Part shown: in pieces, positions 26,033 to 45,970 of the stretch
How positions within the stretch are numbered: the first letter of the stretch is position 1
Layout: each line of letters opens with the position of its first letter
The notes under the pieces: generated by a model
Databases searched by the model: none
Seen by the model: only the letters and a program-made list of their open reading frames with translations
Told to the model about the DNA's origin: nothing
Made by a program: the position numbers and the translations under genes
DNA from: Campylobacterota bacterium
GTDB taxonomy: Bacteria; Campylobacterota; Campylobacteria; Campylobacterales; Nitratiruptoraceae
Assembly: GCA_009659895.1 (NCBI GenBank)
Contig: PUXX01000019.1
Span: forward strand, 1 to 45,970
Direction: 5' to 3'
DNA: 45,970 bases

Positions 26033-28453
26033 GTGGAGTCACATCTTTACAATCTCAATATCGAGCGATCGGTACTTAGTTCTATCCTTTTCGATCCCGC
26101 TATCTACGAGGATGTAGCGGCGGTCCTTAAGCCATCGGACTTTTATCATCCCTTTCATCAAAATCTCTTCGCCGCTATGGAGGAGCTTTTTCGTGAGGAT
26201 CAGCCGATCGATGAGGAGTTTTTGAAAGAGAAGCTCACTATCAAAAATCAGTTTGATGAGCATGCCTTTTTGGAGATCTTGGCGGCCAATCCCATGAGCA
26301 ACACCTCAGCCTATGTCAAAGAGATCAAGGAAAAGGCAATAAAGCGGGAGCTGGTGCATCTCACTACGCAGATCAAAAAGATCACGGTGGAGCAAGATCT
26401 CCCCGTCACCGACGTGATAGACGAGATCCAGTCCAAACTCTACAAGATCACTACCCAAACCAGCAACCAGGAGTTCAAAGACTCCGCAGAGGTGATGAAA
26501 GCGACTCTAGAGCATCTGCTGAAGATGAAAGAGCGTGGCAACTCCATCCTCATAGGTCTGGATACGGGCTTTAGGGATCTCAATGTCAAGACCGCAGGCT
26601 TTAGTCCCGGCGATCTCATCATCATCGCAGCCAGGCCATCGATGGGCAAATGTCTTGGTAAAGGGACAAAGGTCTTGATGTATGATGGTACGCTTAAAAA
26701 TGTGGAAGATGTGGTAGTGGGGGATCTGCTGATGGGGGATGACTCCACTCCAAGGAGAGTGCTTTCTATTGCCAGAGGTCGGGAGAGAATGTATTGGGTG
26801 CGTCAAAACAAAGGAATAGACTATCGTGTCAACGAATCCCATATTCTCTCCTTGAAAAGAAGTCGGACAGAAGGGGCGCATCGTCACGGAGATCTTTTGA
26901 ATATCAGTGTAAGAGAGTTTTTGCAAAAGAGCCCGAAATTTCAGAACAACTACAAAGGATACAAGGTCGCAGTAGAGTTTGAGGCAAAAGATGTTCCTAT
27001 AGAACCCTACTTTTTGGGACTTTGGCTAGGAGATGGCAGACAGAGTGATGTGCGTATTACCACCTGTGATAAGGAGGTGGTGGAATATCTTGAAAAGTAT
27101 GCAAAAAGATTGGGTCTTGGGCTAAAGGTCTATCAAGATCTTGGAAAGGCTCCTGTTTATGCCATCACCGGTCAAAAGGGAGCATCTGGATCTTTGCAAG
27201 AGAAGCTAAGAGAGCTTGGCCTTTTAAAGCGCAAGCATATACCTCATCTCTTTTTGGCCAATAGTTCTGAGGTGAGATTAGAGCTTTTGGCTGGTCTTAT
27301 TGACTCTGATGGTCACTACGATGAGCAGTGTGGTGGATATGAGATCATACAAAAGAGTCTGGAGCTTGCTAAACAGATCAAGTTTTTGTGTGATACATTG
27401 GGATTTCGGACCTCTTTGATAGAAAAAAAGGTCGATTACAACGATCAAAAGCGATCTTACTATCGGGTACGATTTTTTGGGGATGTGGACAGAATACCGG
27501 TCAGGGTGGAACGTAAAAAGGCCAAGGAGTGGAGCTGCAAGCGCAGCTGGAATCAGACCGGGATCAAGATAGAGTATGATCGTGTGGATGACTATTATGG
27601 TTTTGAGATCGACGGAAACAGACTCTTTTTGCTGGAGGATTGTACCGTCACTCACAACACCGCTTTTAGCCTCAATATCGCCCAGTCTGTGCTGGATCAA
27701 AACAAAGGGGTGGTGATATTTTCCTTGGAGATGCCAGCCGAGCAGCTGATGATGCGGATGCTCAGCGCCAAGGCTTGTATACCTTTGCAGCGCCTTCGTG
27801 TGGGGAATCTCAGTGATATGGAGTGGAGTGAGATCAGTCGTCTGAGCGACTACTACGACAAAAAGAAGCTCTTCATCGACGATGAGGGGAGTATCAACGT
27901 CCACCAGCTCAGAGCCAAGCTCAGAAAGCTCAAATCCCAGCACCCTGAGATCTCCTTGGCCATTATCGACTATCTTCAGCTCATGAGCGGGAGTCAAAGT
28001 CGTGATAGACATCTAGAGATCAGTGAGATCAGCAGGAGTCTCAAGATGCTCGCCCGTGAGCTTGACATGCCTATCATCGCTCTATCTCAGCTCAATCGGT
28101 CTTTGGAGAGCAGGATCGACAAACGTCCTATGCTCAGCGATCTAAGAGAATCGGGAGCTATCGAGCAAGATGCCGATGTGATCCTCTTTGTGTATCGTGA
28201 TGATGTCTATAAGATCAAAGAGGCCAAGCAGCGGATGGAGGAGGCCAGAAAGAAAGGGGAGAAGCTGGACATACAGATAGAGGAGAAGCCCGTGGAGGAG
28301 GCCGAAATCATCATAGGTAAGCAGCGTAATGGCCCTACGGGGGTCGTGAAGCTATGGTTTCACAAAGAGTATGTCAAGTTTGCCGAAGAGGCTGCCCAGA
28401 CGGTGCGGGAATATGAGATGAAAGAGAGCAATATCGATATCCCTCCCATCTGA
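26033..28453 (+). CDS. dnaB: Replicative DNA helicase DnaB with intein
   Basis: DnaB unwinds DNA at the replication fork. The 806-residue precursor starts at GTG (MESHLYNLNIERSVLSSIL). Residues 1-206 are the N-terminal domain and the start of the ATPase domain; 207-542 are an intein; 543-806 complete the helicase. Removing the intein leaves 470 residues, the normal DnaB length, and rebuilds the P-loop ARPSMGKTAFSLN. Later motifs are intact: ALSQLNRSLESR, DLRESGAIEQDADVILFVYR and the end IIIGKQRNGPTGVVKLWF. The host gene is essential, so splicing must work. The stop overlaps the comEC start. Confidence 0.96.
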   Translation: MESHLYNLNIERSVLSSILFDPAIYEDVAAVLKPSDFYHPFHQNLFAAMEELFREDQPIDEEFLKEKLTIKNQFDEHAFLEILAANPMSNTSAYVKEIKEKAIKRELVHLTTQIKKITVEQDLPVTDVIDEIQSKLYKITTQTSNQEFKDSAEVMKATLEHLLKMKERGNSILIGLDTGFRDLNVKTAGFSPGDLIIIAARPSMGKCLGKGTKVLMYDGTLKNVEDVVVGDLLMGDDSTPRRVLSIARGRERMYWVRQNKGIDYRVNESHILSLKRSRTEGAHRHGDLLNISVREFLQKSPKFQNNYKGYKVAVEFEAKDVPIEPYFLGLWLGDGRQSDVRITTCDKEVVEYLEKYAKRLGLGLKVYQDLGKAPVYAITGQKGASGSLQEKLRELGLLKRKHIPHLFLANSSEVRLELLAGLIDSDGHYDEQCGGYEIIQKSLELAKQIKFLCDTLGFRTSLIEKKVDYNDQKRSYYRVRFFGDVDRIPVRVERKKAKEWSCKRSWNQTGIKIEYDRVDDYYGFEIDGNRLFLLEDCTVTHNTAFSLNIAQSVLDQNKGVVIFSLEMPAEQLMMRMLSAKACIPLQRLRVGNLSDMEWSEISRLSDYYDKKKLFIDDEGSINVHQLRAKLRKLKSQHPEISLAIIDYLQLMSGSQSRDRHLEISEISRSLKMLARELDMPIIALSQLNRSLESRIDKRPMLSDLRESGAIEQDADVILFVYRDDVYKIKEAKQRMEEARKKGEKLDIQIEEKPVEEAEIIIGKQRNGPTGVVKLWFHKEYVKFAEEAAQTVREYEMKESNIDIPPI
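26651..27658 (+). mobile_element. Intein with LAGLIDADG homing endonuclease, inside dnaB
   Basis: Residues 207-542 of the DnaB precursor (336 residues). It begins with Cys1 in CLGKGTKVLMYDGTLKNVED and ends in VTHN, with Thr as the first residue after it; these are standard splicing residues. The penultimate His541 and block B HxxH-like region (YRVNESHILSL) are present. The endonuclease domain has both acidic motifs, FLGLWLGDG and LLAGLIDSDG, so it may still cut DNA and be mobile. It sits between Lys and Thr of the Walker A motif, so the unspliced protein cannot bind ATP. Confidence 0.95.
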
Positions 28454-33190: not shown

Positions 33191-34375
33191 ATGGTGCGAA
33201 TTGTGTGGCTGTTGATTGTGACTTTGACGCTGCTTGTAGGTGATAGTGTCCATAAGAGCTCATGGCCCAAGGGGGAGACCTTGTTGAGCTATTTTGAGAG
33301 GGAGGGGGTGCCTAGCAAGCTCTATTACGATCTCGATCGTGAGGAGAAGGAGCTGGCTGATGAGATCCGAGCGGGAGTGGACTTTTATGAGGTGCGTGAC
33401 AACAACGGTACTTTGCGTCACGCTCTCATCCCTATCAACGAGGAGCTCCAGATCCATCTCCATCAAGAGGCAGGTTCCTTTGGGATCAGGTTCATCCCGA
33501 TCCATTATACCCTTCTTAGTGATGGCTTTATGCTCCGTATGGAGCACTCTCCTTATAAAGATATCGTCGATGCGACGGGCAATACCCGCTTGGCCCATGA
33601 GTTTGTCAACGCATTCAAGAACAGCCTGGATTTTAGCCGATCGATTCACAAGGGAGATCGTTTGGCGATCCTCTATGACCAAAAGATCCGTCTAGGGGAT
33701 CTTTTTGGGATGCCTCGTATAAAAGCGGCCATGGTGGAGACAGGAGGGAAGAGGCATTATATATTTCATTTCCACGGGCGCTACTACGATGAGAGAGGCA
33801 AGGTACTGGAGAGCTTCTTTTTAAGACGTCCTTTGCGCCATAGCCGAATCACCTCCAGATTTACTCCCAGGCGCTGGCATCCGGTGCTGCATCGCTACAG
33901 AGCCCATCTTGGAGTCGATTTTGGGGCCAGGCGTGGGACGCCGGTGATGGCTGCGGGAAGTGGCAAGGTGATCTTTGCCGGGCGCAAGGGAGGGTATGGC
34001 AACGTAATTATCATCTATCACGGCAGTGGATATAAAACGCTCTATGCTCATCTATCAAAATTTCGCCGAGGAGTACGGGCAGGTAAGAGGGTCAAACAGG
34101 GCCAAATTATCGGCTATGTAGGTAGTACTGGTCTAAGTACCGGTCCTCACTTGCACTTTGGTCTGTATAAGAACAACCGTCCTATCAACCCTTTGCGTAT
34201 GGTCAAGATCACCAAAGGGGGCCTTAGAGGCAAACAGCTCAAAGAGTTCAAGAAGATGGTGAGGCGCTATAAGGAGCAGATCGATCGAATACTCAAAGAG
34301 CAACGAGCCCCAAAAAGGGTCGAGCCTTTGGAAGAAACGATAGTCTATCTAGGAGGGGAGAATGGAAAAAGCTGA
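33191..34375 (+). CDS. M23-family peptidoglycan metallopeptidase, Csd3/HdpA-like
   Basis: A 394-residue periplasmic enzyme expected to cut peptidoglycan cross-links or side chains and affect cell shape. Residues 1-17 form a signal peptide. The N-terminal half (about 25-220) is the regulatory part seen in Csd3-type proteins. The LytM domain (about 225-340) keeps all zinc ligands: HxxxD in HLGVDFGARRG, and HLHF near the end, with YAHLSKF between. It should be active. The C-terminal tail is basic. Its start is divergent from the PgbA-like gene and its end overlaps mgtE by 14 bases. Confidence 0.88.
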   Translation: MVRIVWLLIVTLTLLVGDSVHKSSWPKGETLLSYFEREGVPSKLYYDLDREEKELADEIRAGVDFYEVRDNNGTLRHALIPINEELQIHLHQEAGSFGIRFIPIHYTLLSDGFMLRMEHSPYKDIVDATGNTRLAHEFVNAFKNSLDFSRSIHKGDRLAILYDQKIRLGDLFGMPRIKAAMVETGGKRHYIFHFHGRYYDERGKVLESFFLRRPLRHSRITSRFTPRRWHPVLHRYRAHLGVDFGARRGTPVMAAGSGKVIFAGRKGGYGNVIIIYHGSGYKTLYAHLSKFRRGVRAGKRVKQGQIIGYVGSTGLSTGPHLHFGLYKNNRPINPLRMVKITKGGLRGKQLKEFKKMVRRYKEQIDRILKEQRAPKRVEPLEETIVYLGGENGKS

Positions 34376-35720
34376 GGTTTTAAAGATCGGCCAGGTCCTT
34401 GAGGCCGAGCTCAAAAGCGGTGAGATCACGCTGCATCCTAGCGAGATCGCTGCTTATTTGAAATATCTACGAAACGAGAACGAAGAGGAGTTTTACGACC
34501 TTTTACGAAGACTCCCTGATGAGGTCTTGGGTGAGGTGCTCTTGGAGCTGCCAGAGTCGATCAAGGACGACGCAATAGAGCATCTCTCCGCCCAAAAGCT
34601 GGCCAAAGCGGTAGAGGAGCTCGATAGCGACGATGCGGTAGATCTGGTCAAGGACATCGAAGATGTGGATGTGAGCCTCGAAAAAGAGGTGATGAAAAAT
34701 ATCAGCGAGGAGTACAAAGAGGAGATCGAGACCCTCAGCTCCTACGACGAGGAACACGCCGGGGCCTATATGCAAACGGAGGTTTTCAAGGCCTATACGA
34801 ATGAGCGCATCAAAGATGCTATCGAACGTCTACGTAGACTCAAGGCCGAGGGAGAGCTCTCCAATGTCCACCAGGTCTACGTCGTGGACGAAGAGGATAG
34901 GCTCAGAGCCATTATCCCATTAGAAGATCTCATATTGTACGACTTTGAGACGAGGTTCAGCGATATTTTGCATGAGAAGCGCTATGAGCCTATTGCCGTA
35001 CGAGCCGATGAGCCTATAGGAGAGGTGATCAAGAAGTTTGAGGATTACGATCTGGCCGTCGTAGCCGTAGTGGACGAGCAAGGCAGGCTTCTTGGAAGGA
35101 TTACGTTTGATGATATTATCGATCTTATCGAAGAACAGGCCACCGAGCAGATCTACAACCTAGCCGGCGTGGATGAGGAGATCGAAGAGGAAGACGATAT
35201 CAAAGAGGTGACCAAAAAAAGAGCCTGGTGGCTGCTCATCAACCTTGGTACGGCGATTTTGGCCTCTTTTGTGATTGGACTTTTTGACGATACGATCCAA
35301 AAGTATGTGGCTTTGGCGGTCCTTATGCCTATAGTGGCTTCTATGGGGGGCAACGCCGGTACTCAGACTCTTACTGTCGTGGTGCGAAAACTAGCCCTTG
35401 GAGAGATCGACTGGCAAAACGCCAAAAAGGCTCTTATCAAAGAGACCCTCATCGCCTTTTTGAATGGGCTGATTTTTGCGGTAGTGATGGGGGCGATCGC
35501 ATGGATCTGGTTTAATGATCATATGCTAGGTGTCGTCATCGCCCTGGCGATGGTGATCAATCTTTTGGCAGCGGGTTTTTTTGGAGCGGTCATTCCTCTT
35601 TTTTTGAAAAAGATTGGTTCAGATCCTGCGGTAGGTAGTAGTGTACTGCTTACGACTGTCACCGATGTGGTAGGATTTTTCGCCTTTTTGGGGTTGGCGA
35701 AGTGGATGCTGGTACACTAA
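34362..35720 (+). CDS. mgtE: Magnesium transporter MgtE
   Basis: MgtE is a homodimeric Mg2+ channel of the inner membrane, closed when cytoplasmic Mg2+ is high. The 452-residue protein has an N-terminal acidic superhelical domain (to about 130), two CBS domains (about 135-255), a connecting helix and five hydrophobic helices. Family motifs include PIVASMGGNAGTQTLTVVVR in the pore and LLTTVTDVVGFFAFLGLA at the end. It overlaps the M23 peptidase gene by 14 bases and the next gene by 19. Confidence 0.95.
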   Translation: MEKAEVLKIGQVLEAELKSGEITLHPSEIAAYLKYLRNENEEEFYDLLRRLPDEVLGEVLLELPESIKDDAIEHLSAQKLAKAVEELDSDDAVDLVKDIEDVDVSLEKEVMKNISEEYKEEIETLSSYDEEHAGAYMQTEVFKAYTNERIKDAIERLRRLKAEGELSNVHQVYVVDEEDRLRAIIPLEDLILYDFETRFSDILHEKRYEPIAVRADEPIGEVIKKFEDYDLAVVAVVDEQGRLLGRITFDDIIDLIEEQATEQIYNLAGVDEEIEEEDDIKEVTKKRAWWLLINLGTAILASFVIGLFDDTIQKYVALAVLMPIVASMGGNAGTQTLTVVVRKLALGEIDWQNAKKALIKETLIAFLNGLIFAVVMGAIAWIWFNDHMLGVVIALAMVINLLAAGFFGAVIPLFLKKIGSDPAVGSSVLLTTVTDVVGFFAFLGLAKWMLVH

Positions 35721-36247
35721 GAATCAAACCCCTCAAAAATCCTCGTTTCATCGAGCCGGTGGCTATCTGCTACACCCAAGAAGGCAAGGAGCTGGTATGG
35801 GAGGCAGTGAAGGCACACGATAGCGTGGCGGTGCTGCTCTATCATCCCAAAAAAGAGGCCTTCGTCGTCGTCAAGCAGTTTCGCCCGGCTCTATATATGC
35901 AGCATGGCCTAGAATATAGCTATGAGCTCTGTGCCGGGATCGTGGACAAGGACAAAAGCCTCGAAGAGATAGCCTACGAAGAGGTAGTCGAAGAGACGGG
36001 ATACAGGCCCCAAAACCTTCACAAAGTCACCTCCTTTTATACCTCCGTCGGGTTTGCCGGGAGCCGTCAGACTCTCTTCTATGCCGAAGTGGAGGAGAAG
36101 ATAGAGCCTGGCGGTGGGATCGATGACGAGAGGATAGAGGTCGTCTACGTGCCTGCAAAGAGAGCGAAGGAGTTTATCTTTGACGAGTCGAAGCCGAAGA
36201 CACCTGGGCTGATGTTCGCTTTTTTGTGGTGGTTCGAAACTTTTTGA
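35702..36247 (+). CDS. NUDIX hydrolase, UDP-sugar diphosphatase-like
   Basis: A 181-residue NUDIX enzyme starting at GTG inside the end of mgtE. The Nudix box region reads GIVDKDKSLEEIAYEEVVEE followed by TGY. The core EEVVEETGY is present, but the box is spaced as in NUDT14-type nucleoside-diphosphate-sugar hydrolases, not the MutT type. Likely substrates are UDP- or ADP-sugars; that is a family inference. KQFRPALY upstream of the box is also typical of that subgroup. Its 3' end overlaps the CxxCH protein gene by 74 bases. Confidence 0.85.
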   Translation: MDAGTLRIKPLKNPRFIEPVAICYTQEGKELVWEAVKAHDSVAVLLYHPKKEAFVVVKQFRPALYMQHGLEYSYELCAGIVDKDKSLEEIAYEEVVEETGYRPQNLHKVTSFYTSVGFAGSRQTLFYAEVEEKIEPGGGIDDERIEVVYVPAKRAKEFIFDESKPKTPGLMFAFLWWFETF

Positions 36248-36551
36248 CGATATCTTCTTGTTCGATGAGCTCTTCTATCGCCTTTTGGGCGATCTCTTTG
36301 GAAAATTTTGGATGTTTGGCAGGATCGAAGCGTCGCTTGAGACCTGGAGGGAGGATGCTCTTGTCGGCAGAGGGTGAGACGAGAAAATCGGTAAGATTTC
36401 GTTTGATGCGCTCTTTGGAGCTATAGAGCAAAAGTGCACGTTTATAGATCATGACATAGGGGATCTGGCTCTTGTGGCATCTGTCGCAGTGGTGCTTGAG
36501 TATCTGGGCTCCAAGTATGAGAGGCAGGAGCATAAGGACTACTTTTTCCAT
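36174..36551 (-). CDS. Small secreted CxxCH protein, putative c-type cytochrome
   Basis: The ATG at 36551 gives 125 residues (MEKVVLMLLPLILGAQILKH), with a signal peptide of about 15 residues. Cys22-Asp-Arg-Cys25-His26 is a heme c attachment motif, followed by a helical, basic body ending in a charged tail. No clear axial Met is identified (none is predictable with confidence). It overlaps the end of the histidine kinase gene by 13 bases and is the last gene of the two-component operon. It could be a redox partner or sensor component; that is inference from position. The 3' end overlaps the NUDIX gene. Confidence 0.75.
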   Translation of the reverse strand: MEKVVLMLLPLILGAQILKHHCDRCHKSQIPYVMIYKRALLLYSSKERIKRNLTDFLVSPSADKSILPPGLKRRFDPAKHPKFSKEIAQKAIEELIEQEDIVKKFRTTTKKRTSAQVSSASTRQR

Positions 36552-37699
36552 CGTATCTCTACCTTCGTGCCTTTTTGAGGTCGACTCCAAATAGCAAACC
36601 CAAACCCATAATAATCGCATATCTTTTTGACGATGGCAAGTCCAAGACCAAATCCCCCTTCGCTAAAATTGGCTCTAAAGAAGCGTCGTGTGATCTTGGG
36701 CAGATGGTGTGGATCGATCCCCACTCCTTCATCTTCTACCAAGAAACGCTCTTGGTTGAGAGAGATAGAGATGCTCTTTTTTGGTGGAGTGTATTTGATG
36801 GCATTGGAGATGAGATTGTCAAAGAGAGTCTCAATATCGCTACGATCGATCTGGAGGATCACAGGCTCAATGTCGGTATGTAAGAAAAGATCTTTTGAGC
36901 GCATGAGAGTATGGAAGTAGTGGAGACGCTGGCGTAGTATCTCATGGATAGGCAGAGGCTGGATCTGCTTTTTGAGTTTGTGGTGAAGCTGCAAAAAGCT
37001 CAGATCTGAAAAGATCTTGCTAAGTCTCTTGGCGGCAGTTTCTATACGCTCAAGCTCTTGGGATTTCGCAAGCTCTGGATGGAACTCTTTGAAAAGCTCG
37101 ATATTGGTGATGATGGTGCTAATGGGGGTGTTGAGCTCGTGTGTGGCGTCTTTGATGAAGTTGTCCAGGAGCGTGATGGTCTGCTTGAGTGGAGCTAAGA
37201 AGATCTTGCCAAGGATATAGGCGGTAATGGCTATGATGAGCAGGGAAAAGAGGGTAAAGAGGGCAAGATCTCCATAGAGTCTAGCAAGAGCCTTTTGATC
37301 GATTGCCGAGGAGAGGACCAAATAGGCAGCCCCTAGATAGTGGGGATAGATCTTTTTGACCATGACGATACTATCTTCTAGACGCTGGATCTCTTTGGAA
37401 AAATCGATCTTGGGTGGGCGAAAATCTCCTATGATGTAGTTTTGATCGATATCGTAGATGGCGCTGTGGATACCCGGGAGTGAGGGGTATTCCAAGAGAG
37501 GATCGAAACTTTGGTGGAGTTTTTTGAGCTCCAGGGTGATCTTTTGGGCTGCCTGACGCAGATCCTGGATCGTTTTGTCTTCGATTTTGTGGATAGCGTA
37601 GCGGTAATAGAGGTACTCCCCCACCAGCACCAAAAAGAGTGTGGAGAGGATATAGAGAGCCAAGAATCGATAGAAACTCTTTTTCTCACTTGGGAACAA
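36539..37699 (-). CDS. Sensor histidine kinase
   Basis: A 386-residue membrane kinase starting at TTG and overlapping the response regulator gene by 14 bases. Hydrophobic helices at about 12-33 and 145-168 enclose a periplasmic sensing region of about 110 residues (34-144) with no family I recognise. The dimerisation domain carries the phosphorylated His187 in DATHELNTPIST. The ATP-binding domain has LISNAIKYTPPKKS (N box), VEDEGVGID (G1) and GGFGLGLAIVKKI (G2). All are intact. A HAMP linker is not obvious. The signal is unknown; neighbours suggest calcium or an envelope cue. Confidence 0.92.
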   Translation of the reverse strand: MFPSEKKSFYRFLALYILSTLFLVLVGEYLYYRYAIHKIEDKTIQDLRQAAQKITLELKKLHQSFDPLLEYPSLPGIHSAIYDIDQNYIIGDFRPPKIDFSKEIQRLEDSIVMVKKIYPHYLGAAYLVLSSAIDQKALARLYGDLALFTLFSLLIIAITAYILGKIFLAPLKQTITLLDNFIKDATHELNTPISTIITNIELFKEFHPELAKSQELERIETAAKRLSKIFSDLSFLQLHHKLKKQIQPLPIHEILRQRLHYFHTLMRSKDLFLHTDIEPVILQIDRSDIETLFDNLISNAIKYTPPKKSISISLNQERFLVEDEGVGIDPHHLPKITRRFFRANFSEGGFGLGLAIVKKICDYYGFGFAIWSRPQKGTKVEIRWKK

Positions 37700-38324
37700 A
37701 GCGATAACCTACCTCTTTGATGGTCTGGATTCTTTCTTTGCCGATGATTTTGCGAAGATTCTTGATCTGGGCTCTTAGGGCTCCTTCGCTATTTGGTTCG
37801 TGGGGATAGAGTCTGTGAAGAAGCTCTAGCTTATCCACGATTTTGCCAGGCGCTTCCAAAAAGATCTCCAAAAGCTGGGCTTCTTTTGGTTTGATATGGA
37901 GCTCTTGGCCTTTTGTGTGGATGATGAGTCTATCTGGATCGTAGGCTAGATCCGGACCGATAGGGATAGGTCCTTTTTTGTTTTTGAAGAGTGAGTCGAT
38001 GCGGAGTTTGAGCTCTTTAAGGTAGAAAGGCTTTTTGATATACTCTACAGCTCCCGCTTTGAAGCCACGTTCAATATCTTCGATGGAGTTGAGGGAGGTG
38101 ATGTAGATGGTCGGTGTGTCGATATCGTTCTCTTCCAAAAAGCGAAAGCCGTCTTGATAGGGGATCTTGACGTCAAGGAGCAGCAGATCAAAAGTATGGT
38201 TGCGTAGCTGCTCCTTGGCGCATAGAGCGTCGAAGCATTGCGTGATAGTGAAGCCCTCTTTGGTGAGGTATTTTGTTATGGTCTCGTTGAGCTCCGTATC
38301 ATCCTCGACGATCAAGACTCTCAT
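37686..38324 (-). CDS. OmpR-family response regulator
   Basis: A 212-residue transcription regulator. The receiver domain (1-115) has the acidic pair Asp8/Asp9, the phosphorylation site Asp51 in LLLLDVKIPYQDG, Ser77 in YITSLNS and Lys in EYIKKPF. The winged-helix DNA-binding domain (about 125-210) ends in IQTIKEVGYRFVPK, typical of the OmpR/PhoB group. Partner of the downstream histidine kinase. It overlaps the EF-hand gene by 4 bases (ATGA). Confidence 0.94.
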   Translation of the reverse strand: MRVLIVEDDTELNETITKYLTKEGFTITQCFDALCAKEQLRNHTFDLLLLDVKIPYQDGFRFLEENDIDTPTIYITSLNSIEDIERGFKAGAVEYIKKPFYLKELKLRIDSLFKNKKGPIPIGPDLAYDPDRLIIHTKGQELHIKPKEAQLLEIFLEAPGKIVDKLELLHRLYPHEPNSEGALRAQIKNLRKIIGKERIQTIKEVGYRFVPK

Positions 38325-38674
38325 TGCAGACCTCTTCTTCTGTTTTGAAAAGATCGAAGCTCAGCTTTGTCGATGAAGCCGTCACCATTGAGATCGATAT
38401 CCTCAAATTGGATTTTGCCGGCATTTTTGAGAGGTTTGCCCTCCTGGGCTCTCTTGCGCATTCTCTCTTGACGGCGCTCCTCCCACTCATAGCGAGAGAT
38501 TTTTCCATCGCCGTTGACATCGAAGTAGCGAAACATCTGCTGACGCTGGTTGAATTGCTGGTGTTCCATTCCAGCGCCCATACCGCCACCTCCCATACCC
38601 ATTTTGCCAGGGCCTCCCGGCCCCATGGCAAAGGATGCTATACTAAAAAAGAGTATAAGAACTAGTCTAGTCAT
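38321..38674 (-). CDS. Secreted EF-hand calcium-binding protein
   Basis: A 117-residue protein with a signal peptide (LVLILFFSIASFA), then a Gly/Met-rich linker (GPGKMGMGGGGMGAGM), then two canonical EF-hand loops: DVNGDGKISRYE (52-63) and DLNGDGFIDKAE (94-105). Both have acidic residues at 1, 3 or 5 and Glu at 12, so calcium binding in the periplasm or outside is likely. It is 11 bases after the DUF2202 gene and overlaps the response regulator start, so it belongs to the same operon and may report calcium to the kinase (inference). Confidence 0.88.
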   Translation of the reverse strand: MTRLVLILFFSIASFAMGPGGPGKMGMGGGGMGAGMEHQQFNQRQQMFRYFDVNGDGKISRYEWEERRQERMRKRAQEGKPLKNAGKIQFEDIDLNGDGFIDKAELRSFQNRRRGLQ

Positions 38675-38685
38675 CGTAGGCCCTT

Positions 38686-39924
38686 TTACATTCTACCATG
38701 ACCGTGTCCAGCGCCACCACCGCCATTGTTGGAAGGATACTCCTCAGGAGTTTTGCAGTACTCTTCTCCTAGACTGCAGCATCCTTGAGCGACACCGATA
38801 CTTTTGAGAGCGCTATCAAAGGCCCAGTAGTGGTTGTAGCTACCATTTCTCAAAAAGGTGAAGACATTGATGAGATCTTGGTTGTCCCCAGCGATCTCTA
38901 GGGCTTCGTCGAGGTCATTGACGTCGGTCACTTCGACGATACAGCCCACTTCCAAAGCGTCTTTGAGGCTTTGGGAGCCTTTGGCGTAGAGCTGATCGTA
39001 GAGTGATTGGATTTCGCTAAGAGAAAACTCTCCGCTTCCAAGAGCGCTGAGTTTGTTGGGATCGTAAGGTCCTGCAAATCCTCCTTCGACATTGGTGGCG
39101 TCGATGTCATACTTTTGTAGTAGCCCTTCTACAGCGTTCATGTGCTGTATTTCGCTTCGTGTGGCGATGTTGTAGAGTGGCATGGCCGCTTGCTCGGCGC
39201 TGTAGAGGTTGTAGAGACTAAGATAGATATCATGTGCCAGTTTTTCTTCATTCCACATATAGGCTACTTCGTAGATCTGCTCTGGAGTTAGGGTCCCAGC
39301 TGGTGTGCTTGTGAGATTGTCTGTGACGCTGGCTCCTTGATTTTGCGCTCCCTGGCCTCCGTTTTGAGCGCCATTTGAGAGGACGACGAAAGAGACAGTA
39401 GGTGTGGTGAGGCTTCCTGGTAGAGCTGTGCTTTGGGAGATGGTATAGGTAATATTTGGCAATGGATCTGGGATGTTGTCCCCATCGATATCTAGATAAT
39501 CAAAGGTATGCTCAGGTGTCGCTCCCATGAGCTTGTAGACTTGGCCACCTTTTGTGGCGTAGACCCAAGAAAATCTAGCGTCGCTATCTAGTGGGAAGTC
39601 GATATAGATAAAATAGCCATCTGGATCGCTTTTAAGATCTGTAGGTGCTGCTACAGGAGCGAAACCAAAGGCGTTGTCCTCGGTAGGAGTGACAGCTAGG
39701 AGTCGGTAAGTGGAGCCGTTTGGCACCGTTTTGTAGAGCCAGTCGTTGGCATCAATCTTACCATCTTTTTCGAAATCGTAAGCGAAAAACTCTCCATTGA
39801 GATTAAAAGAGTTTGTCATGAGGTGTTGATTGAGAGCCTGGATATAGGTATGATCGGCTGTGGCCCCAAGGAGCGTAGTCGCTAGAGCAACACTTCCAAA
39901 GAGCAGCGCTTTTGCCTTTTTCAT
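38686..39924 (-). CDS. Secreted DUF2202 (ferritin-like) protein with calcium-type loops
   Basis: The ATG at 39924 (MKKAKALLFGSVALATTLLG) follows AGGAGG and gives 412 residues with a signal peptide. The N-terminal part (24-185) has a calcium-type loop DFEKDGKIDAND (50-61) and a second acidic loop DIDGDNIPD (145-153). A Gly/Gln/Asn linker (NGAQNGGQGAQNQGA, 184-198) leads to the DUF2202 domain (about 214-377), a four-helix bundle with MWNEEKLAHDIY and SEIQHM, whose Glu and His could bind metal. The tail is Cys-rich then GHGHGRM, another possible metal site. Function is unknown; it heads the calcium/two-component operon. Confidence 0.85.
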   Translation of the reverse strand: MKKAKALLFGSVALATTLLGATADHTYIQALNQHLMTNSFNLNGEFFAYDFEKDGKIDANDWLYKTVPNGSTYRLLAVTPTEDNAFGFAPVAAPTDLKSDPDGYFIYIDFPLDSDARFSWVYATKGGQVYKLMGATPEHTFDYLDIDGDNIPDPLPNITYTISQSTALPGSLTTPTVSFVVLSNGAQNGGQGAQNQGASVTDNLTSTPAGTLTPEQIYEVAYMWNEEKLAHDIYLSLYNLYSAEQAAMPLYNIATRSEIQHMNAVEGLLQKYDIDATNVEGGFAGPYDPNKLSALGSGEFSLSEIQSLYDQLYAKGSQSLKDALEVGCIVEVTDVNDLDEALEIAGDNQDLINVFTFLRNGSYNHYWAFDSALKSIGVAQGCCSLGEEYCKTPEEYPSNNGGGGAGHGHGRM

Positions 39925-39955: not shown

Positions 39956-39961
39956 ATTATA
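39956..39961 (-). promoter_or_regulatory. Putative -10 element of the DUF2202 operon
   Basis: On the minus strand TATCTTATAATTTGAG carries TATAAT 31 bases before the DUF2202 ATG, in the 59-base gap after the RND gene. It would let the five-gene operon be expressed apart from the efflux genes. Confidence 0.5.
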
Positions 39962-39983
39962 AGATATTCAAATGAAAAAAACG

Positions 39984-42900
39984 TTACTGCTTGGTGAGCT
40001 GAGTGTTACCTTGGGTCCGATAGATCCAGGTAAAGACGATCGGGATGAAGACTAGCGTCAAGAAGGTCCCTATCATAAGCCCTCCAATGGCCACCGCTCC
40101 AAGAGGCGCCAATCTCTCCAGTCCTATCGCCCATCCAAGGGCTACGGGCAGCATCCCCGCCGTCGTCGCAAAGGCCGTCATCAAAACGGGTCTGGTCCTG
40201 ACATGGATACTCTCTAGCATCGCCTCTTGGGGACTGAGCCCCTTTTTGAGCCCCATGAGGGCGAACTCGATGAGCAAGATGGCGTTGTTGACGATGATAC
40301 CGCTTAGCAAGATAAAGCCCATCATCGCTGGCATAGAGGTGTGATAATCAAGCAGCAGCAGTATCCACGCCGCTCCGATGAGTGTAAGGGGGATAGAGAA
40401 GATAATGAGCAGCGGCGCTTTGAAAGAGCCAAACATCGGAACAAGCACGAAAAAGATAAGCAAGATACCAAAAAAGACCGCTTTGGTCATACGCTTGGCC
40501 GAATCCTCGAACTGAGCGATATCTCCAGCCTGTACCATTTTTACCTCAGGTGGTAGCTTCACTCCTTCAAAGGCCTTTTCGAAGTTGCTCATGATGTGGC
40601 TAATGGCTGCCTTTTCTCGAAATCCGTAGACGTCGATGGTATACTCAAGCCCCTCTCTGGTAATCGAGCTAGGTGTGATTCCTCTTTGGATGGTGGCTAC
40701 CGTGCTTAGAGGGATTTTCCCTTTTGGGCTTTGGAGCAAGAATTCATCAATGGGTTTTGTGTTGTCTCCCCAGATGCGTATCTTGATGTCGTTGGCGTTT
40801 TGCACCGGTTTGGTGGCGGCGAAGCCCCCTTTGAGGTAGAGGGTGAGCTGGGAAGCGATATCGGAGGCGGTGAGGCCATATTGGAGCGCTTTGGTCTCGT
40901 CGATTTTGAGCTCGAAAATCTCTTTGTCATACTCCCATGTTTTGGAGATATTGACCAAGCCTTTGGTATGCAAGAGCACCTCATACATAATGTCGGAGGC
41001 CTTTTTGAGCAGATCGAAGTTCGGAGCGCTTAGCATCACATCCACGTTTCCTCGAATAGACGAGAGCGCCGTCGCTCCGTAGTCGAAGACGCTAAAGTAT
41101 TTGATATCGGGAAGTTTGGCGATCTCTTTTCGGATAGAGCGCTCGATCTCCCAGATACTCCTATCCCGCTCAAATCTATTGACATAGGCGGCGGTGATAG
41201 AGAGGGAGTCGATACCGCTGCCGCTGCCGATACTCATCACTCCCGCTTCGCTTCCGATAGAGCCGCTCATTCTAAGCAAAGGAGCGGCGCTTTCTAAGAT
41301 TTCGTTGACTCTCTCCATCGTCTTGGCGCTGCGCTCAATGGGGAGATTGCTATCCATCTGGATATTGATCTTGACGATTCCCGTATCCATAGGGGGCATG
41401 AGCTCCTGGCCCACCAGGGGCATCACGCCCCGAGCGGCGATGGCAAAAAGCACGAAAAGTATTATAAAGTAGAGCGCCGTGACCTTCTTGCTCTGCATGG
41501 CGTATCGGGCGAGAGATTTGAAGAAGTTTCGAGCGCCGTTGTTGAACGCGTTGCTAATTTTGCCAAACCACTCCTCAAATCTCAACACCCATGGATGTTT
41601 GATAGCCAAGAACTTCAGACTCAAAAGGGGCACCGTGGTGATGGAGATGAAGTAGGAAGCTGCCAAGGCGATGAGCAAGGTGCCCACGAGAGGGCGAAAG
41701 ATGGTCTGGGGGTAGTCGCCTACGAACATGATAGGCACCAAAGCGGCCATGGTGGTGATGGTGCCCGAAAGATCAGCGAACATGATCTCTTTGGTCCCTT
41801 CGATGACGGCTCTTTCAATCGGTTTGCCAAGCTCTTTGTAGTGGCGCTCGATATTTTCCATCACCACCACCGCATCGTCAAGCAGCAGCCCCAAAGCCAA
41901 GATAATGGCGGTGAGGGTGACGACGTTGAACTCGATGCCAAGCAGATACATCCCCGCCACCGTCGCGGCGTAGACCAGCGGAATCGTAAAGAGCACCACC
42001 AGCACCTGGCGCAAGGATGCTAGGAAGAAGAAGGCGACGATGGTGGACATCACGATAGCGTCTCGTAAGGACTCGAACATATTGACGATGCTTTGCTCAA
42101 TGGTGTCCTTTTGGGTATCAGTGATCTCAAACTGGAGTGCTGGGTATTTGAGCTTGATCGATTCAAGCTCCTTTTCGACCTTCTCGATGGTTTTGATGAC
42201 GTCGGCTTGGGTGCTTCGCTGCACCGAAAGAGCGATGGATGGTTTGCCGTTTCCAAAGTAGAGCGCGGTGTTGTCGTAGTGATCGTAGGTGACGTCGGCG
42301 ACATCTTTGAGGAGCGTCGTGGGCGTGACGGGGATATGTTTGATCTTTTCTAAGATATCTCGCTTGTTCTTGGCTTTGAGGAGGAATTTGCCTCGGTGCA
42401 GATCCAAATAACCGATGGCGAAATCCTTGTCGTTCTTGGATAAAGCCGCGAAGACATGGGCGGGGGTGAGGCCCAGGCTATCGAGCTTGGCTTTGTCGAG
42501 CTTGATGATTACCTCTTTTTTGTAGCCCCCGAAAATCTCCACATTGGCTACGCCTTGGACCTTGAGCAGATCGTTTTTTATCTCGTCTTCGGCGATCTGG
42601 CGAATCCGCATCAGATCATCGCCACTCACGCCTATCACCACCACCGGCGGCGTGGCTGCGGTGATTTTGTGGATCTGGGGCTCTTTGATGGAGGTTGGGA
42701 GGAAGGATCGAATTTTGGTGATGGCGTTGGAGACGTCGCTTGCAGCGTTGTCGATATCTTTGGTGTATTCGAACTCCGCTCGAATGACGCTCACTTCGTC
42801 GATAGTGGTGGAGTAGACTCGGCGCACTTGATCTAGGGTATAGAGTTCACGCTCAACGGGCACGGCGACGTTGGAGGCGATATCCTCCGCTCCGGCTCCG

Positions 42901-43055
42901 GGCCACTGGACGACGACGGCGATTTCTGGGCGGTTGGAGTCGGGGAAGAGTTTGCGATCGATGGAGTTGTAGCCGTAAATCCCCAAAAAGAGAAATATCC
43001 CCAAGATCGAGAGAACGGTGTGGGGCTGTTTGATGAGTCTTTCTATCCAATTCAC
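39984..43055 (-). CDS. RND efflux pump inner-membrane transporter
   Basis: A 1023-residue resistance-nodulation-division permease driven by proton flow. It starts at GTG (MNWIERLIKQPHTVL), overlapping the adaptor stop. It shows the usual two-fold layout of twelve helices and two large periplasmic loops. LLLDDAVVVMENIERHYKE in helix 4 carries the Asp pair of the proton relay and resembles the HAE (organic-substrate) class rather than heavy-metal pumps. The segment FPDSNRPEIAVVVQWPGA is typical of the first loop. The substrate is unknown. It is the last gene of the pump operon. Confidence 0.92.
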   Translation of the reverse strand: MNWIERLIKQPHTVLSILGIFLFLGIYGYNSIDRKLFPDSNRPEIAVVVQWPGAGAEDIASNVAVPVERELYTLDQVRRVYSTTIDEVSVIRAEFEYTKDIDNAASDVSNAITKIRSFLPTSIKEPQIHKITAATPPVVVIGVSGDDLMRIRQIAEDEIKNDLLKVQGVANVEIFGGYKKEVIIKLDKAKLDSLGLTPAHVFAALSKNDKDFAIGYLDLHRGKFLLKAKNKRDILEKIKHIPVTPTTLLKDVADVTYDHYDNTALYFGNGKPSIALSVQRSTQADVIKTIEKVEKELESIKLKYPALQFEITDTQKDTIEQSIVNMFESLRDAIVMSTIVAFFFLASLRQVLVVLFTIPLVYAATVAGMYLLGIEFNVVTLTAIILALGLLLDDAVVVMENIERHYKELGKPIERAVIEGTKEIMFADLSGTITTMAALVPIMFVGDYPQTIFRPLVGTLLIALAASYFISITTVPLLSLKFLAIKHPWVLRFEEWFGKISNAFNNGARNFFKSLARYAMQSKKVTALYFIILFVLFAIAARGVMPLVGQELMPPMDTGIVKINIQMDSNLPIERSAKTMERVNEILESAAPLLRMSGSIGSEAGVMSIGSGSGIDSLSITAAYVNRFERDRSIWEIERSIRKEIAKLPDIKYFSVFDYGATALSSIRGNVDVMLSAPNFDLLKKASDIMYEVLLHTKGLVNISKTWEYDKEIFELKIDETKALQYGLTASDIASQLTLYLKGGFAATKPVQNANDIKIRIWGDNTKPIDEFLLQSPKGKIPLSTVATIQRGITPSSITREGLEYTIDVYGFREKAAISHIMSNFEKAFEGVKLPPEVKMVQAGDIAQFEDSAKRMTKAVFFGILLIFFVLVPMFGSFKAPLLIIFSIPLTLIGAAWILLLLDYHTSMPAMMGFILLSGIIVNNAILLIEFALMGLKKGLSPQEAMLESIHVRTRPVLMTAFATTAGMLPVALGWAIGLERLAPLGAVAIGGLMIGTFLTLVFIPIVFTWIYRTQGNTQLTKQ

Positions 43056-44170
43056 CGCTTACGCCTTTGGCTAAAGAGTTTGGCTAGTTTTTCGTTGCTG
43101 CCGACGGCCACCGGCTCTTTGATGCGAGGATTGGGGATGAAGTAGTCTTGGGAGGCCACTTCCACTTCTATCGCCACTGGCTCGAAGCCGTTGGCGGTTT
43201 TGATGAAGACGTAGGTTTTGTTTTGCTGCTCAAAAAGAGCTTGGATAGGCAGGGCGTAATCTTTGAGGCTTTTTTGGATTACCAGTACGGGCAGTTGGGT
43301 ATCGTTTGGCAGACGAAGGGGCTCGTCGCAGAGGATTCGGGCCACTTTGAGCGAGTTGGCGCTTTGGGGGAGGATCCGATCGACTTCGCAGAGTCTATCT
43401 TTGACTTTTACCTTCATCTTCGGCTCCACTCCTTTATCGAAAGGCAGATCCAAGACGAAATTTTGGCCCAAGAGCTTGACGATCGGTTTGCCAAGAGGGG
43501 CGAAGGAGCCCTCTTTGAAAAAGAGCTTCGCCACGCTCCCTTCAAAAGGGGCTGTGATCTGGGTGTAGGTAAGAAGCTCTTTTTTAGAAGCAAGGGCGGT
43601 GATGGCTGCTTGAAGCTCGTTTCGTTTGGCGGCAAGAGCTGCTTGAGCGCTTTGAAGCTTGGCTTTTTTGGCGGCGTAGAGGGCCTCTTTGAGCTCATAT
43701 TTCTCCCTTGCCAGGGCTCCGGCTTTGTAGAGTCTGCGATCGCGCTTTAGGCTCTTGTAGGCAGCCGATTCGTCGATTTTTGCCGCATGCAAAAGCGCCT
43801 CTTGGGCTTTGATCTGGGCTTTGAGGTTTTTGACGAGGGCCTCTTGGGCGGCTATTTGGGCTTCGATCTCGCTTTTGTCCAGATCGACGAGGGGCTGATC
43901 TTTGTGGACGCTCTGTCCCTCTTGGACGTGGAGCTTTTTTACTCTTCCTGGAATCTTCGTAGCGATAAGCGCCTCGTCGTAGGCGTAGTAGCGCCCAAGG
44001 AGCCTCTTGGTCTGGTTGACCTCTTTGAGCGTCGGGTTGGCCGTTTGGACTACCAGTTCGGGCGGTTGGGGAGTGGGGAGGTTCGCTAGCTCCTCTTTTT
44101 TCTTTTTTATCAAAATGACACCCCCGGCTATGGTGAGGGCGATGAGGATGAGCCATAGGAGTTTTTTCAT
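43052..44170 (-). CDS. RND periplasmic adaptor (membrane fusion protein)
   Basis: A 372-residue adaptor joining the RND transporter to the outer-membrane channel. The N-terminal helix (LLWLILIALTIAGGVILI) anchors it. A lipoyl/barrel-sandwich part is visible in ATKIPGRVKKLHVQEGQSV and ITAPFEGSVAKLFFKEGSF, flanking a long alpha-hairpin with Ala/Lys-rich coiled coil (about 110-200). Start and stop overlap neighbours by 4 bases each, so it is tightly coupled. Confidence 0.92.
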   Translation of the reverse strand: MKKLLWLILIALTIAGGVILIKKKKEELANLPTPQPPELVVQTANPTLKEVNQTKRLLGRYYAYDEALIATKIPGRVKKLHVQEGQSVHKDQPLVDLDKSEIEAQIAAQEALVKNLKAQIKAQEALLHAAKIDESAAYKSLKRDRRLYKAGALAREKYELKEALYAAKKAKLQSAQAALAAKRNELQAAITALASKKELLTYTQITAPFEGSVAKLFFKEGSFAPLGKPIVKLLGQNFVLDLPFDKGVEPKMKVKVKDRLCEVDRILPQSANSLKVARILCDEPLRLPNDTQLPVLVIQKSLKDYALPIQALFEQQNKTYVFIKTANGFEPVAIEVEVASQDYFIPNPRIKEPVAVGSNEKLAKLFSQRRKR

Positions 44171-45387
44171 TCACCTGCCTTTAGATAGTTGATGTAAGCG
44201 ATTTTGGTGTAGAGATCGTAGTAGGTTTTGGCTAAAGAGCTTTGAGCGTTTTTGGTATTGGCGATAGCCAAGAGATAGTCGTCAATCTCGCTTCTGCCGC
44301 TCTCATATTTTATCTTTTCTATCGATTCGATCTTTTGAAGGAGTTCGAGGTTGGCTTTGAGCGAGGTGATGGTGGACTCCAAAGATGCCTTTTGGAGCGT
44401 TGCTTCTTGGAGCTTGGCTTGGAGGGCCAGTGTCTGGGCGGCGAGGTTTTTTTGGGCGATGAGAGAGGCGATTTTGCCCTTTTGATAGGTGTGGGACTTG
44501 TAGCCAAAATCAAAGAGGTTATATCCTAATGCCACCGATGTCTGCCACACTTCGGCGCTGTCGTCTTGGCCCCAGTTTTTGGCGTAGTCGGCATTGAGAA
44601 AAACTTTTGGGTAGTAAAGAGCCTTCGCCTTTTTGAGCTCCTTTTTGGCTTGGGCCGTTTGGATCTGAAGCTTTTTAATGAGATAGGGCGTAGCGTGCGT
44701 ATCTCGCAGCTCCTCTTCGCTCGCCGATTCAAAGCCATCAAAAGGTGCGCCCGTAAGAGCGCTGATGTGGGCTTTGAGAGCTTCCACAGCGTTTTTAGTG
44801 GAGACGATCTTGGAGTCGATTTGGACCAGTTGGCTTTTGATTTTGAGTAGATCCAAAGGAGCTTTGGAGCCAAGATCGACCTCTTTTTTGGTGGTGTCGT
44901 AGAGGGTTTGGAGCGCTTTTTTGTGGGCTTGGAGCGCCTCTTCGCTCTTAAGGAGCCCTAAGCCTTTGAAGTAGAGGGCTTTGATGTTGTAGATGAGCTC
45001 CTCTTTGGTGAGCTTGTAGTCTATCTGGCTCTTTTTGGCTGCCAGTTTGGAGACCTCTACTTGCGCCAAGTCCGCAAAACCTTTGAAAAGCGCTACTTTA
45101 TAAGAAGCGCCGAGAGTCGAGATATCCTTACTCACCGTGATTCCCGGAGTGATGGGCGGTGTCAAGGGTTTGAGCGTGCGAGGGATGTTGTAGTGGGTGA
45201 AGGCGCCGCTAAGATCGACCTCGCCGTACATCTTGGCTTTGTGGGCCTCCTTTTGGTGCTCTTGGAGCTTGACGGCAAGATTTTTGGCTTGGAGCGTGGG
45301 GCTTGAGCGCAGGGCTTGATCGATGGTCTCTTGGAGCGAAGCGCCATAGAGCGCCCCGCAAAGAAGGAAAAGATAGAGTCCCCTCAT
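44167..45387 (-). CDS. TolC-family outer membrane efflux protein
   Basis: A 406-residue outer-membrane channel of the TolC type, with a signal peptide (LYLFLLCGALYGAS) and two repeated helical halves rich in Ala, Lys and Leu (LQAKNLAVKLQEHQKEAHKA; LIAQKNLAAQTLALQAKLQE). It would give the pump an exit through the outer membrane. Slightly shorter than E. coli TolC. It overlaps the genes on both sides by 4 bases. Confidence 0.9.
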   Translation of the reverse strand: MRGLYLFLLCGALYGASLQETIDQALRSSPTLQAKNLAVKLQEHQKEAHKAKMYGEVDLSGAFTHYNIPRTLKPLTPPITPGITVSKDISTLGASYKVALFKGFADLAQVEVSKLAAKKSQIDYKLTKEELIYNIKALYFKGLGLLKSEEALQAHKKALQTLYDTTKKEVDLGSKAPLDLLKIKSQLVQIDSKIVSTKNAVEALKAHISALTGAPFDGFESASEEELRDTHATPYLIKKLQIQTAQAKKELKKAKALYYPKVFLNADYAKNWGQDDSAEVWQTSVALGYNLFDFGYKSHTYQKGKIASLIAQKNLAAQTLALQAKLQEATLQKASLESTITSLKANLELLQKIESIEKIKYESGRSEIDDYLLAIANTKNAQSSLAKTYYDLYTKIAYINYLKAGE

Positions 45388-45824
45388 CGCCCCATCATAC
45401 CTTTGCCCATTTTAGGATGCTTGAAGCCTTGGGGAGGGAAGTTGTCGTAGAGGTAGGATGCGATCAGTTCTAAATCTTTTTCGGGCAAATGCAGAGGTGG
45501 CATGAGGCCAAAACGCTTGACTGAGGGGCAGAGTGCCTTGGAGTGGCTTGGATTGCGGACATAATCGACGATGAAGCGCACGGCGTCGGCTTTATTGGGG
45601 TAGCGCTCCTTGACGTGCCACATCACACCCATGATAGGGGGTGCTATGAGTTTGGATCGATCTTTTGGCTTGGAGGTGACGTGACACATGGCGCAGTGGC
45701 GCTCAAAGAGCTCTTTGCCTTTTGCGTTGTCCGATTTGAGAAGGGCCGGTCTTTGGGTGTTTTGGGTGGAGCAACCTGCAAGAAGCGCTGCGGCGACGAG
45801 TGCGATGAGTGTCCATTTTTTCAT
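45384..45824 (-). CDS. Cytochrome c lipoprotein heading the efflux operon
   Basis: A 146-residue lipoprotein. LIALVAAALLAGC ends in a lipobox with Cys18, so the protein is anchored to a membrane by lipid. CAMCH (Cys44, Cys47, His48) is a single heme c site and GLMPPLHLP supplies a likely axial Met, as in class I cytochromes. It is the first gene of the RND operon and overlaps the TolC-like gene by 4 bases. Cytochromes are not a standard part of RND pumps, so the role is unclear: it may belong to respiration or to redox sensing, or be linked only by transcription. Confidence 0.88.
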   Translation of the reverse strand: MKKWTLIALVAAALLAGCSTQNTQRPALLKSDNAKGKELFERHCAMCHVTSKPKDRSKLIAPPIMGVMWHVKERYPNKADAVRFIVDYVRNPSHSKALCPSVKRFGLMPPLHLPEKDLELIASYLYDNFPPQGFKHPKMGKGMMGR

Positions 45825-45847: not shown

Positions 45848-45853
45848 ATTATA
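45848..45853 (-). promoter_or_regulatory. Putative -10 element of the efflux operon
   Basis: On the minus strand CCGATATAATCTTCG carries TATAAT 23 bases before the cytochrome lipoprotein ATG. AAAAGGATGG follows as ribosome-binding site. Confidence 0.55.
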
Positions 45854-45875
45854 TCGGTAGTGTATGAAATTTTTG

Positions 45876-45970
45876 TTAATGGCAATACCTTTTTAACAAA
45901 CAGCTGTAATCCTCAACCCTTCGATCCCGAAAGAAGGGCCAGATATCTCGCACCTCTTTGGTGCGCTCCA
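45876..45970 (-). CDS. C-terminus of probable carbon-nitrogen hydrolase (partial)
   Basis: The last 30 codons of a gene that enters from the right edge end at TAA (45876-45878). The sequence contains VRDIWPFFRDRRVEDYS, which closely resembles the C-terminal motif RxxWPFxRDRRIDxY of nitrilase-superfamily amidases such as N-carbamoylputrescine amidase, as I recall it. The rest lies outside the window, so the enzyme and substrate cannot be confirmed. The gene ends 51 bases upstream of the cytochrome lipoprotein gene on the same strand. Confidence 0.6.
   Translation of the reverse strand, partial: ERTKEVRDIWPFFRDRRVEDYSCLLKRYCH

Follow-up and report, generated by a model that had tools for sequence, protein, structure and literature searches.

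The 45,970-nucleotide window analysed here (contig PUXX01000019.1 of assembly GCA_009659895.1, C65 in our numbering) belongs to a bacterium from a hot vent, represented by a 1.39-Mb, 86%-complete Nitratiruptor-type metagenome-assembled genome (MAG). It contains a run of nine genes that ends with an OmpR-type response regulator (RR), a sensor histidine kinase (HK) and a small secreted protein with a CxxCH motif. We put a probability of about 55% on the reading that this run is a self-regulated envelope-stress and efflux operon resembling BaeSR-MdtABC, in which a stand-alone protein with a c-type heme modulates the kinase. The reading is based on the content and order of the genes, the conservation of the RR-HK-CxxCH triad, the joint loss of the CxxCH gene and of a His/Tyr signature in the kinase sensor, and promoter boxes conserved in relatives.

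The run begins at the contig edge with the gene for a secreted monoheme cytochrome c lipoprotein (45384..45824), followed by those for a TolC-type outer-membrane efflux protein (44167..45387, PF02321), a membrane fusion protein (MFP; 43052..44170, PF16576) and a resistance-nodulation-division (RND) pump (39984..43055). These four genes lie 59 bp upstream of the gene for a secreted ferritin-like DUF2202 protein (38686..39924), after which come a small secreted EF-hand protein (38321..38674), the RR, which is of the OmpR/PhoB type by its sequence (37686..38324), the HK (36539..37699), with a HELNTP H-box and a TTG start that is kept in relatives, and the CxxCH protein (36174..36551). All nine are on the minus strand, and neighbours either overlap or are separated by 59 nt or less. 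An initial annotation had described the genes from DUF2202 to CxxCH as a five-gene unit on one strand with four members overlapping. The position and strand of these genes and the overlaps (4 nt for EF-hand/RR, 14 nt for RR/HK and 13 nt for HK/CxxCH, with a gap of 11 nt between DUF2202 and EF-hand) were confirmed, but the CxxCH gene probably starts at 36551 and not at 36620, and the run begins further upstream, at the cytochrome c lipoprotein gene. That annotation had overlooked the promoter boxes, the pump genes and the cytochrome at the head of the run. The 3' end of the CxxCH gene overlaps a convergent NUDIX gene.

The relationship between the kinase and the CxxCH protein was examined in an alignment of 74 kinases and the window kinase. 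The periplasmic sensor segment of the latter (residues 34-142, 109 residues; 37274..37600, minus strand) contains no CxxCH motif itself, and its residues His62 and Tyr121 track the CxxCH partner. His62 was found in all 43 kinases with a partner versus approximately 25% of those without, Tyr121 in 95% versus 7%, and Tyr71 in 91% versus 11%. Two rows scored as lacking the partner (L056 and L109) group with the partnered kinases and are likely to have it or to have had it, so the contrast is if anything understated. On a maximum-likelihood kinase tree, the presence or absence of the partner required three label changes, compared with a mean of 21.5 after shuffling. Two clades without CxxCH, one of the Sulfuricurvum type and the other the sister group of the Nitratiruptor operon kinases, branch from within the partnered kinases with starred support; the partner has been lost at least twice, and the printed rows of both loss clades are devoid of the His/Tyr signature. 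We interpret these results as functional coupling between the CxxCH protein and the kinase sensor, and not as proof of contact.

In the fetched loci, the genes for 44 of 45 CxxCH homologues immediately follow the kinase gene on its 3' side. The CxxCH profile found matches in 43 of 60 related genomes. The RR-HK-CxxCH triad is present in named loci of Sulfurovum, Sulfurimonas, Sulfurospirillum, Arcobacter and Nitratiruptor, and the source genome carries a paralogue of the triad on contig C37, which in relatives adjoins c553-type cytochrome genes. No CxxCH gene was seen beside the best kinase matches of Campylobacter jejuni, C. showae and Helicobacter cinaedi. The kinase sensor described initially as unrecognised indeed has no Pfam match, whereas the kinase itself belongs to a subfamily spread across Campylobacterota. 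No paper was found on EF-hand or cytochrome partners of two-component systems in this phylum, and the pairing of a small heme-type partner protein with a membrane sensor, conserved across much of the phylum, is apparently undescribed.

The two Cys residues and the His of the CxxCH motif, which is the heme-attachment motif, are invariant across the homologues. Weak profile matches relate the protein to Met-ligated class I cytochromes c of approximately 140 residues, with which it has an 'NPS..K...RFG' stretch in common. Some of these cytochromes are fused to EF-hands, and such monoheme fusions were also observed near kinases of the window-kinase kind (L155, 8785-9531; L072, 11264-11977; L241, 1243-1776). 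The AlphaFold model of the CxxCH protein is helical (pLDDT 80). A PDB sequence search with the CxxCH profile gave motif-level matches only, and a comparison of the family with sCache_heme (DUF3365/Tll0287) gave a single sub-threshold Tll0287 match. Since the source genome encodes a ResB/CcsB-type cytochrome maturation protein, heme maturation is possible. We infer covalent heme binding by the CxxCH protein from its motif and signal peptide, from its relatives and from this maturation gene.

Gene order was compared in sister loci fetched around the kinase. The order DUF2202-RR-HK, in part followed by CxxCH, is present in four sister genomes (G006, G007, G013 and G014), and in G006 and G014 TolC-MFP-RND precedes it; the order pump-DUF2202-RR-HK(-CxxCH) is kept in the sister operons L034 and L035. 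TolC-MFP-RND-DUF2202-RR-HK was found in another family (L197), and pump genes occur with RR-HK-CxxCH in other orders in G027, G046 and a Sulfurovum contig (L039, L040 and L046). The pump, DUF2202 and the two-component system stay together in several families. In sister genomes, homologues of the first cytochrome gene (L035, 13020-13541; L033, 3548-3961) stand before the pump or before DUF2202. In five loci (L051, L053, L154, L155 and L170), related two-component systems stand beside TolC-MFP with an FtsX-type permease and an ABC ATPase, both named from sequence, and no RND gene; the pump type there is swapped.

Two copies of a box, TAAC-N7-TCAT-N10-TATAAT, combine a putative regulator operator with a −10 sequence. 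P1 (TAACAAAAATTTCATACACTACCGATATAAT; 45848..45878, minus strand) starts 54 bp before the ATG of the cytochrome c gene, and P2 (TAACGTTTTTTTCATTTGAATATCTTATAAT; 39956..39986, minus strand) lies 62 bp before DUF2202. These were the only exact matches in the window, compared with 0.02 expected in shuffles. The only other exact match in the genome (G000:C90) overlaps a start codon on the other strand; it was rejected as a regulon member because it represents a ribosome-binding site with its start codon, read in reverse complement. The same geometry was found before DUF2202 in L032, L033 and L035, the last two of which also have it before the cytochrome gene; a diverged version was read by eye in L034. 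The TAA of P2 is the stop codon of the RND gene in the window and in L035 and is not independent there, whereas L032 and L033 have no upstream RND gene and retain the box. Outside the genus, a slightly relaxed box (TAAC-N7-T[AC]A[CT]-N10-TA...T) stands before DUF2202 in 16 of 56 loci, against 17 of 1736 other ORFs, and also before TolC in L197. In these loci it commonly takes the form of a clean direct repeat of 11 bp (TAACACT-N4-TAACACT). Operators of PhoB/OmpR-type regulators are direct repeats of this kind. The box, as judged from its sequence, has a PhoB/OmpR-like geometry and is a putative operator. The link that the initial annotation had made between secreted proteins and the two-component system was borne out for DUF2202 and CxxCH by gene order, and probably by a shared promoter box.

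In the proposed mechanism, periplasmic conditions would be sensed jointly by the kinase and by a small secreted CxxCH protein of its own. This protein most likely has a single, covalently attached heme and would modulate the kinase sensor domain. The input may be the redox state, a gas or a bound metal, and the pump substrate may be a drug or a metal. The phosphorylated RR would bind the direct-repeat-like TAAC-N7-TCAT box at both promoters, P1 driving the cytochrome c lipoprotein, TolC, MFP and the RND pump, and P2 driving DUF2202, the EF-hand protein, the RR, the HK and the CxxCH protein. DUF2202, the cytochrome c and the EF-hand protein, the last in this strain only among the sisters, would act as periplasmic protection or buffering factors. 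A broader proposal, which we hold tentatively and at somewhat less than even odds, is that a three-component signalling module of this kind is widespread among free-living Campylobacterota. In it, a monoheme cytochrome-like protein of the periplasm, with its gene directly 3' of that for the kinase, would be the obligate input of an OmpR-type two-component system, relaying redox, NO/H2S or metal signals via the conserved sensor His/Tyr, and in some lineages the module would govern pumps and a secreted ferritin-like protein.

The alternative that survives best, although unlikely, is a CusS/CzcS-like system, in which the kinase sensor binds a soft metal (Cu, Ag or Zn), the cytochrome, EF-hand and DUF2202 proteins with their Met/His/Gly-rich tails buffer or oxidise it, and the role of the CxxCH protein is to relay electrons or metal and not to be the sensor. 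The sensor segment was modelled well (pLDDT 90), and the top four PDB matches of the model were silver-bound CusS (E=0.048-0.055) and CzcS (E=0.076-0.086), with probabilities of 0.57-0.91. However, no match reached E<0.001, and PhoQ and CpxA-type domains also appeared; a PDC-like fold, as of a metal or envelope sensor, is suggested by the model but falls short of significance. Metal handling would also fit the Gly/Met-rich N-terminal stretch of the EF-hand protein, the Met-rich tails of the cytochromes and the location of some relatives' loci near P-type ATPase, CDF or cobalt/nickel-type transporter genes, as read from sequence. The cytochrome c lipoprotein (146 residues) combines such a tail with a lipobox, a CAMCH motif and a PF00034 match above the cut-off. 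On the other hand, the pump is HAE-1-like. It carries the HAE-1 'DD' motif (LLDDAVVVMEN), its nearest solved structure is MdtB rather than CusA or CzcA, and a CusA/CzcA-type (HME) pump was ruled out by this motif and by a TIGR00914 score of 305.9 against a cut-off of 701.45 bits. The pump falls below all curated subfamily cut-offs, including that of the MdtB/MuxB-type NF007798 (341 vs 1584 bits).

Several observations weigh against a heme-modulated, self-regulated operon. Mirror-tree partial correlations do not favour the sensor over the kinase domain (0.34 vs 0.37). The fold search with the CxxCH model was not significant, cytochrome c6A appearing only at a TM-score of 0.40-0.48 and E>7, and no Pfam cytochrome model passed its cut-off; the best, Cytochrome_CBB3, reached E=0.0086 in 3 of 12 members, not including the window protein. 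A distal Met is present in about two-thirds of the homologues, and Leu is found in the window protein. Many of the compared loci are MAG contigs, and the rows are phylogenetically non-independent. The box was noticed by eye first and the genus-level counts are post hoc, the other families providing the fairer test. In addition, the box was found at 11 of 33 DUF2202 genes that have no two-component system linked to them, and the pstS promoters of relatives contain a similar TAAC-N7-TAAT repeat. A TAAC-N7-TAAC box was also observed before TonB-dependent-receptor-like and ExbB-like genes, so named from sequence, in L094, L095, L201, L252 and L262. Because similar boxes precede pstS and TonB-receptor-like genes, a different OmpR/PhoB-family regulator could own the box, and the two-component system would then adjoin the pump without controlling it. 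We regard this as improbable, given that the pump, DUF2202 and the two-component system occur together in several families and that pstS was not found in the same-genus genomes with the DUF2202-kinase operon (G000, G006, G007, G013 and G014), some of which are incomplete MAGs. The interpretation of the motif as a Pho box was rejected on this last ground, despite the likeness to relatives' pstS promoters. Seven same-genus genomes without the operon do have pstS.

The DUF2202 and EF-hand proteins bear on the calcium or metal sensing circuit proposed by the initial annotation. The DUF2202 protein matches PF09968 with 96.6 bits (cut-off 22) and is a member of this family. It aligns with MJ0754 of Methanocaldococcus (PDB 3q4n; E=2e-26), with which it shares the DUF2202 domain and the conserved E/H/N-H positions. 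Conserved residues of the window protein are E226/E227, E258, H261, E331 and H365, and it is ferritin-like and probably a di-metal protein. It differs from MJ0754 in being secreted and in having an extra N-terminal domain with two acidic loops. No literature on DUF2202 or MJ0754 was found in the library searched. Both loops had been described as of calcium type; the first (DFEKDGKIDAND, residues 50-61) is fully EF-type, whereas the second (DIDGDNIPD) has no acid at position 12. In the EF-hand protein, both loops (DVNGDGKISRYE and DLNGDGFIDKAE) are canonical, as described. The N-terminal domain and both acidic loops are broadly retained in four sister DUF2202 proteins, but this domain is missing from many DUF2202 homologues.

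Around loci fetched by DUF2202 or EF-hand, with a simple ORF caller and related genomes that are not independent, two-component genes were enriched near DUF2202 (22 of 167 nearest-two ORFs versus 8 of 304 ORFs at least four places off; OR 5.6, p=1.6e-5), and DUF2202 also adjoins pump genes in relatives. The corresponding class-wide counts at EF-hand loci were 8 of 164 near versus 6 of 231 far, which is not significant (OR 1.9, p=0.27) and goes against the proposed calcium link. EF-hand genes adjoin related kinases in five loci (L155, L196, L253, L250 and L072), and the order EF-RR-HK-CxxCH-DUF2202 in L196 of the distant genome G312 is the only other locus with all five parts. However, none of the four sister operons, where at most 28 nt separate DUF2202 from the RR gene, has the EF-hand gene, and no PF13202 match was detected anywhere in G006, G007, G013 and G014. 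Calcium binding by the loops themselves is possible, and nothing found ties calcium to the kinase; a metal or redox theme is plausible. That calcium binds the EF-hand and DUF2202 loops, which then report to the kinase, is highly improbable, the invariant accessory being CxxCH and not EF-hand.

Among known systems, mdtABCD-baeSR of enterobacteria likewise combines a TolC-dependent HAE-type RND pump, of which the MdtB subunit is nearest to the window pump among solved structures, with the OmpR-type regulator and kinase that control it, in one locus. It differs in having mdtB and mdtC instead of one RND gene and in having no cytochrome c, DUF2202, EF-hand and CxxCH genes. The window kinase and regulator scored below the NCBIfam cut-offs for the Bae families (BaeS_SmeS, 81.5 vs 500 bits; BaeR, 69.2 vs 380). 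The Salmonella regulator BaeR responds to several metals, with induction by iron, copper and zinc, and also by indole (PMC3160322). CusSR-CusCFBA and CzcRS-CzcCBA resemble the window operon in joining a tripartite RND pump, a two-component system and small periplasmic proteins, and their sensor domains are the top fold matches of the sensor model, with weak scores. In contrast, the window pump is not of the HME type, and the kinase and regulator are below the TIGR01386/TIGR01387 cut-offs. A CxxCH c-heme in periplasmic signalling is known from the c-type heme sensor domains GSU0582 and GSU0935 (PMC12889525, PMC3460858) of the sCache_heme/DUF3365 type, and stand-alone c-heme signalling proteins with Cache folds exist in this family (PMC12889525). 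In the window, on the other hand, the CxxCH motif belongs to a small helical protein of its own that has no Cache fold, and the gene for it lies 3' of that for a kinase whose sensor has no such motif. What would be new relative to known two-component control of RND pumps is the heme-type kinase partner and the presence of DUF2202 and cytochrome c in the regulon.

Two other genes in the window were noted. A gene for an MgtE magnesium transporter (34362-35720, plus strand) is convergent with the operon, and MgtE also adjoins the operon in L034. The replicative DNA helicase gene (26033-28453, plus strand; 806 aa) appears to carry an intein (CLGKGTKVLMYDG...HNTA) within its P-loop region.

That two-component systems control RND pumps is well known. 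If the proposed mechanism is true, a kinase that has its own stand-alone partner with a c-type heme, kept across the phylum and lost together with a specific sensor histidine, would represent a new way of coupling periplasmic redox state or gases to gene expression. The link to the regulon would provide the first functional handle on secreted DUF2202 proteins, and the coupling is open to direct tests through the invariant His, the lineages that have naturally lost the partner, and the predicted operators.

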